Made by a program: the position numbers and the translations under genes. A DNA stretch of 64,000 nucleotides from Alkalimarinus alittae (lineage in GTDB: Bacteria > Pseudomonadota > Gammaproteobacteria > Pseudomonadales > Oleiphilaceae), in assembly GCF_026016465.1 (NCBI RefSeq), contig NZ_CP100390.1, positions 496,001 through 560,000 of the forward strand. Reading direction: 5' to 3'. The notes below the pieces were generated by a model that worked only from the letters and a program-made list of their open reading frames with translations, made no database searches and was not told the origin of the DNA. Of this stretch, positions 18,853 through 19,048 are shown one piece after another (the stretch's first letter is position 1; every line of letters starts with the position of its first letter).

Positions 18853-18870
18853 TGTAAGAGATCTCGCACA
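18853..18870 (+). promoter_or_regulatory. GacA-type upstream activating sequence of the sRNA
   Basis: TGTAAG-AGATCT-CGCACA matches the GacA box TGTAAG-N6-CTTACA in the whole left half and in C..ACA of the right half. It ends 43 bases before a TACTAT -10 element (18914-18919), so with a start near 18926 the box lies about 55-75 bases upstream, the placement known for rsm promoters. Confidence 0.7.
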
Positions 18871-18925
18871 CGACTTTGAGACATTGGCTATATATCTCAA
18901 ACAGCTAAGTCAGTACTATGTATTT

Positions 18926-19048
18926 CATCAGGACGACATCGCAACGTAGGGATGCGGACAAGGAAGTAAACAGGATGGCAGGTTACCTAAGGAATGGTAA
19001 AGGAAGCATCAAACAAATAAGGCGCTGCAAGGATTGCAGCGCCTTTTT
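18926..19048 (+). ncRNA. RsmY/RsmZ/CsrB-like sRNA that would sequester RsmA/CsrA
   Basis: A ~123-nt transcript between the DUF2914 gene and mmsB. It holds eight GGA motifs, at 18931, 18950, 18956, 18962, 18973, 18991, 19002 and 19031. Several are in the AGGA or AAGGA form bound by CsrA/RsmA. One is in the loop of TTACC-TAAGGAAT-GGTAA (18983-19000), and another is the entire loop of the terminator stem. The promoter has a GacA-type box at 18853. Size, motif number and promoter layout match RsmY/RsmX-class RNAs, which titrate the translational repressor RsmA under GacS/GacA control (established knowledge). The 5' end is estimated. An open frame across it has no ribosome site. Only sequence comparison or expression data can say which Rsm subtype it is. 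Confidence 0.8.
19021..19048 (+). terminator. Terminator of the Rsm-like sRNA (GGA loop)
   Basis: A perfect 10-bp stem GGCGCTGCAA / TTGCAGCGCC (19021-19043) whose 3-base loop is GGA, followed by five T's (19044-19048). In the opposite direction it could also help end the valine operon, whose last stop is at 19081. Confidence 0.88.

Follow-up and report, generated by a model that had tools for sequence, protein, structure and literature searches.

What is encoded in the interval that separates a DUF2914 gene from the mmsB end of a valine operon in the 64-kb stretch of DNA analysed here (the window)? A preliminary description had placed in this interval an RNA of ~123 nt, of the RsmY/RsmZ type, under the control of a GacA box. 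RNAs of the RsmX/Y/Z class are produced from GacA-activated promoters and act through repeated GGAs in a ~120-nt RNA (PMC4950607, PMC2375449, PMC7366521), and one genome may hold several such sponge genes, as with RsmX1-5, Y and Z in P. syringae and nine genes in A. vinelandii (PMC7366521). No described Rsm RNA for the lineage studied here was found in the literature searched, including that on Hahella and Marinobacter. The analysis leads us to put at about 93% the probability that the unit is a GacA-activated sponge sRNA gene of the Gac-Rsm/Csr circuit, whose predicted product would sequester CsrA/RsmA.

Results

The predicted Rsm/Csr-type sponge RNA was modelled as a unit of 121 nt at 18928..19048 on the + strand, close to the length first proposed, and scores 144.4 bits with model R1. 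It is represented in alignment A1 by 18 full copies, drawn from five genomes within the genus and one from a sister genus. The true 5′ end of the unit probably lies within a few bases of 18925, the estimated start site. No ORF of at least 80 codons covers the unit and none is conserved across the 18 copies, in which the longest ATG ORF is 5-20 codons, in keeping with the earlier statement that no protein gene explains the signal. Eight GGA motifs were counted, as had been described, beginning at 18931, 18950, 18956, 18962, 18973, 18991, 19002 and 19031. Two of them are in hairpin loops; several conserved GGAs, some in hairpin loops, are a mark of CsrA/RsmA-sequestering sRNAs. The first such hairpin (18983..19000, +; UUACC/GGUAA, in DNA TTACC-TAAGGAAT-GGTAA) presents GGA in an 8-nt loop, and folding bore out this part of the preliminary description. 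The second is the intrinsic terminator (19019..19045, +), which is followed by a T run; GGA does form its whole loop, as had been noted, but the stem measures 12 bp rather than 10 bp. The folding z of the RNA, -5.7, is owed mostly to this terminator.

On the + strand of the window the mean GGA density is 0.95 per 124 nt. Since 0.6% of the sequences obtained by mononucleotide shuffling of the unit reached eight or more GGAs, the GGA count by itself is modest evidence. The sole other + strand run of at least seven GGAs in the window (seven in 124 nt, 2858-2985) spans the end of a 76-codon ORF (2652-2882) and the DNA past it, and no GacA box match was found near it.

Upstream of the unit is an 18-bp GacA-type activating box, TGTAAGAGATCTCGCACA (18853..18870, +), which within the window is alone in matching TGTAAG-N6-CKCACA exactly; a pattern search of the same 64 kb returned four other matches, each with two mismatches. 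From the start of the box to the sequence TCAGG the spacing is 75 nt, identical in 18 of 18 copies, and a box distance of -75 has been reported for rsmY (PMC4950607). The right half of the box reads CGCACA, not CTTACA as in the RsmX/Y/Z box, and the core box sequence AGATATCT is retained. A -10-like element, TACTAT (18914..18919, +), appears as TAYYAT across copies, and no -35 consensus was found in the promoter region. Both box and -10-like element are thus where they had first been placed, and the unit has, as far as its sequence tells, what CsrA/RsmA-sequestering sRNAs have: a promoter of its own with a GacA/UvrY box. A degenerate second box-like element, TTTGAGACATTGGCTATA (18875..18892, +), is partly conserved in the promoter alignment, reads TTTNAGAGATATCCTACA in many copies of the RNA family and may share in regulation. 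It lies 22 bp past the first, and since this is about two helical turns, the spacing suggests that two GacA dimers may sit at the promoters of this family.

The DUF2914 gene runs in the same direction and ends 79 nt upstream, as would be expected were the signal the 3′ UTR of an adjacent gene or its leader element. That reading is hardly credible given that the unit is equipped with a box, -10 element and terminator of its own, that mmsB is convergent and that sister copies lie beside other genes. For the same locus a tie to the valine operon had been put forward; it found no support, the operon being merely a convergent neighbour and the sister copies being located elsewhere.

BLAST identified homologues, in several copies per genome, in each of the genus's four remaining genomes and in one genome of the sister genus. 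Across the 18 aligned copies all 24 GGA columns are invariant, so that every one of the eight motifs is kept, compared with 42 of the 97 remaining columns (p=4.6e-8, hypergeometric test), and because of this conservation the unit was judged to be real rather than a product of chance. The pairs of the terminator stem show two-sided compensatory changes; outside the terminator only one pair covaries and the structure is weak. A short form of 121-122 nt comprises the window copy, its orthologues and the copies in G004 and G036, and a long form of 145-158 nt contains a variable insert able to form a hairpin. Folding of the G036 homologue was no better than that of shuffles.

Each genome holds three to eight copies of the family, some of them clustered locally ~1 kb apart, and decayed remnants are also present. 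Such a distribution is what a repeated mobile or REP/MITE-like element with incidental GGA content might leave. At the orthologous locus of four species (G000-G003), however, position has been kept, with the DUF2914 gene on one side and mmsB or its neighbour on the other, and identity stands at 93-95% for the RNA and at 72-89% for the box region, whereas the flanks have diverged to only 25-34% upstream and 40-49% downstream. The GGA columns are selectively invariant, box and terminator are held at a fixed distance, and one RNA copy is itself interrupted by an IS3-type element, which together make a mobile element very improbable. The interrupted copy lies at G002:C1:714193-715605 (L018), and other intact copies remain in that genome.

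With the covariance model, real homologues were recovered from genus g5, at up to five per genome, and, in one genome each, from two more of the family's genera; these carry seven to thirteen GGAs, mostly with boxes. In the rest of the order the model gave false matches only. Matches to R1 in genus g12 (best E 3.7e-4) were rejected as terminator similarity beside protein genes, boxless and with two to four GGAs, and those in two genomes from a different family within the order (E ~1e-4) on the same grounds. For each copy R1 also gave low-scoring matches on the complementary strand, which are the reversed terminator.

The regulatory partners of such an RNA were sought in the genome. GacA/UvrY was found at 308.7 bits (curated cut-off 280), with uvrC directly after it, an arrangement shared with Pseudomonas and E. 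coli. A full-length BarA/GacS homologue scored 884 bits against a cut-off of 890, six bits under it, and CsrA, whose gene follows lysC, scored 90.9 bits. csrA, gacA and gacS thus occur in one genome, as belongs to the class of CsrA/RsmA-sequestering sRNAs. A divergent second CsrA (G000:C1:1261645; L029:1474-1674), of 66 codons from ATG, scored 49.7 bits and has unrelated neighbours.

A genome-wide pattern search for the box returned five exact sites, where by our own estimate ~0.03 are expected by chance, and one site with a single mismatch; sites with two mismatches were no commoner than in a reversed control. Some box sites had at first been read as lying upstream of mRNA targets, for example a metallo-beta-lactamase-fold gene, and this reading was abandoned, since in the alternative orientation they point to a conserved GGA-rich stretch. 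Each of the six exact or single-mismatch boxes has a GGA-rich stretch downstream, and this revealed, besides the three copies of the window RNA family, a second small family (B), a CsrB-like RNA (C) and a weaker candidate (D). Family B (G000:C1:3066783, L035, +), which adjoins the metallo-beta-lactamase-fold gene on the opposite strand, carries six GGAs within 135 nt, one of which is presented by the hairpin CACTGAA-TGGA-TTCAGTG. Its box is followed by TATAAT, 61 nt from the box start, and the family is conserved in every one of the genus's five genomes. Family C (G000:C1:3726059, L037, + from about 1686) packs 22 GGAs into 400 nt, a count that rises to as many as 29 in relatives. It is conserved across at least four of the genus's genomes, and in four its start lies 186-187 nt past the box, a distance reminiscent of the -196 given for rsmZ; the family resembles CsrB in GGA richness, yet reaches only 17.9 bits with the CsrB model (threshold 71). 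Family D (G000:C1:3955605, L038, -) is a candidate only, with four GGAs within 200 nt after the box and a single relative (G003:C2:383996, L091), the pair having four to six. In G036 three copies of a further family (L092, L098 and L105, -) have eleven GGAs in 200 nt and near-perfect boxes. The genome very probably carries five or six such predicted sponge-RNA genes, the window gene among them.

The distinct intrinsic terminator and the conserved single-stranded stretches would also suit an sRNA under GacA control whose main action is pairing with mRNAs, in the manner of Hfq-type sRNAs, rather than CsrA titration. The invariant columns, however, centre on the repeated GGAs, and the unrelated sister RNAs under the same box have GGA richness alone in common, so that we give mainly mRNA pairing little credence. 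A CsrA-sequestering Rsm/Csr-type sRNA under a GacA box appears to be the best reading, given the fixed-distance box, the conserved GGAs, the sister copies and the presence of gacA, gacS and csrA.

The search of the window against Rfam gave no family match at gathering score, and none of the RsmY, RsmX, RsmZ/PrrB and CsrB models reached threshold. Among the Rfam Rsm/Csr families RsmY (RF00195) was best, at 12.8 bits for the window copy and 22.6 bits for the best sister copy (gathering score 57); PrrB_RsmZ and CsrB were unlisted for the unit even at E up to 10. Several sub-threshold matches at E up to 10 fall on the antisense terminator. Run over the unit's own genome, the RsmY model gave four weak matches, none GGA-rich, and those inspected were terminators or coding sequence. 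The label RsmY/RsmZ-type is therefore apt as a description of function but does not hold as Rfam family membership.

Discussion

Since all sequence-level features of the RsmX/Y/Z class were found in the unit, it was assigned as a putative CsrA sponge, a reading well supported by comparative evidence. From the sequence we infer transcription, activation by GacA, binding of CsrA and an effect on targets. Phosphorylated GacA would bind the box, which lies 75 nt ahead of the RNA, and switch on a promoter that has a -10 element and no clear -35; the resulting RNA of ~121 nt, with its eight GGAs, would sequester CsrA/RsmA dimers and so release CsrA-bound mRNAs. The window RNA may act jointly with its two sister copies, the second small GGA-rich RNA, the CsrB-like RNA and perhaps a sixth gene.

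A Gac-Rsm circuit with a full set of parts would thereby be extended to a lineage of marine bacteria with Oleiphilus and Hahella among its relatives, and the lineage may serve as a test case for why genomes retain many redundant CsrA sponges. The box alone appears to detect sponge RNAs where Rfam models fail. On balance we incline to a broader view, in which a lineage-specific, GacA-controlled sponge family absent from Rfam, with three to eight copies per genome of the genus, exists beside another two or three sponge families unrelated to it, a CsrB-like one with 22-29 GGAs among them, and GacA has practically no other direct targets.

The window RNA resembles CsrB and CsrC of enterobacteria and vibrios as a predicted CsrA sponge governed by the BarA/UvrY (GacS/GacA) pair, but the unit is about one third as long and has fewer GGAs. 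With RsmX, RsmY and RsmZ of Pseudomonas and Azotobacter it has in common a length of ~120-150 nt, seven to nine GGAs, an intrinsic terminator, an upstream palindromic GacA box (at -75 in rsmY) and several genes per genome. Its GGA-spaced body, however, is not confidently alignable with theirs and the match to RF00195 is insignificant; we read the window RNA as a lineage-specific new family that would use a known mechanism.
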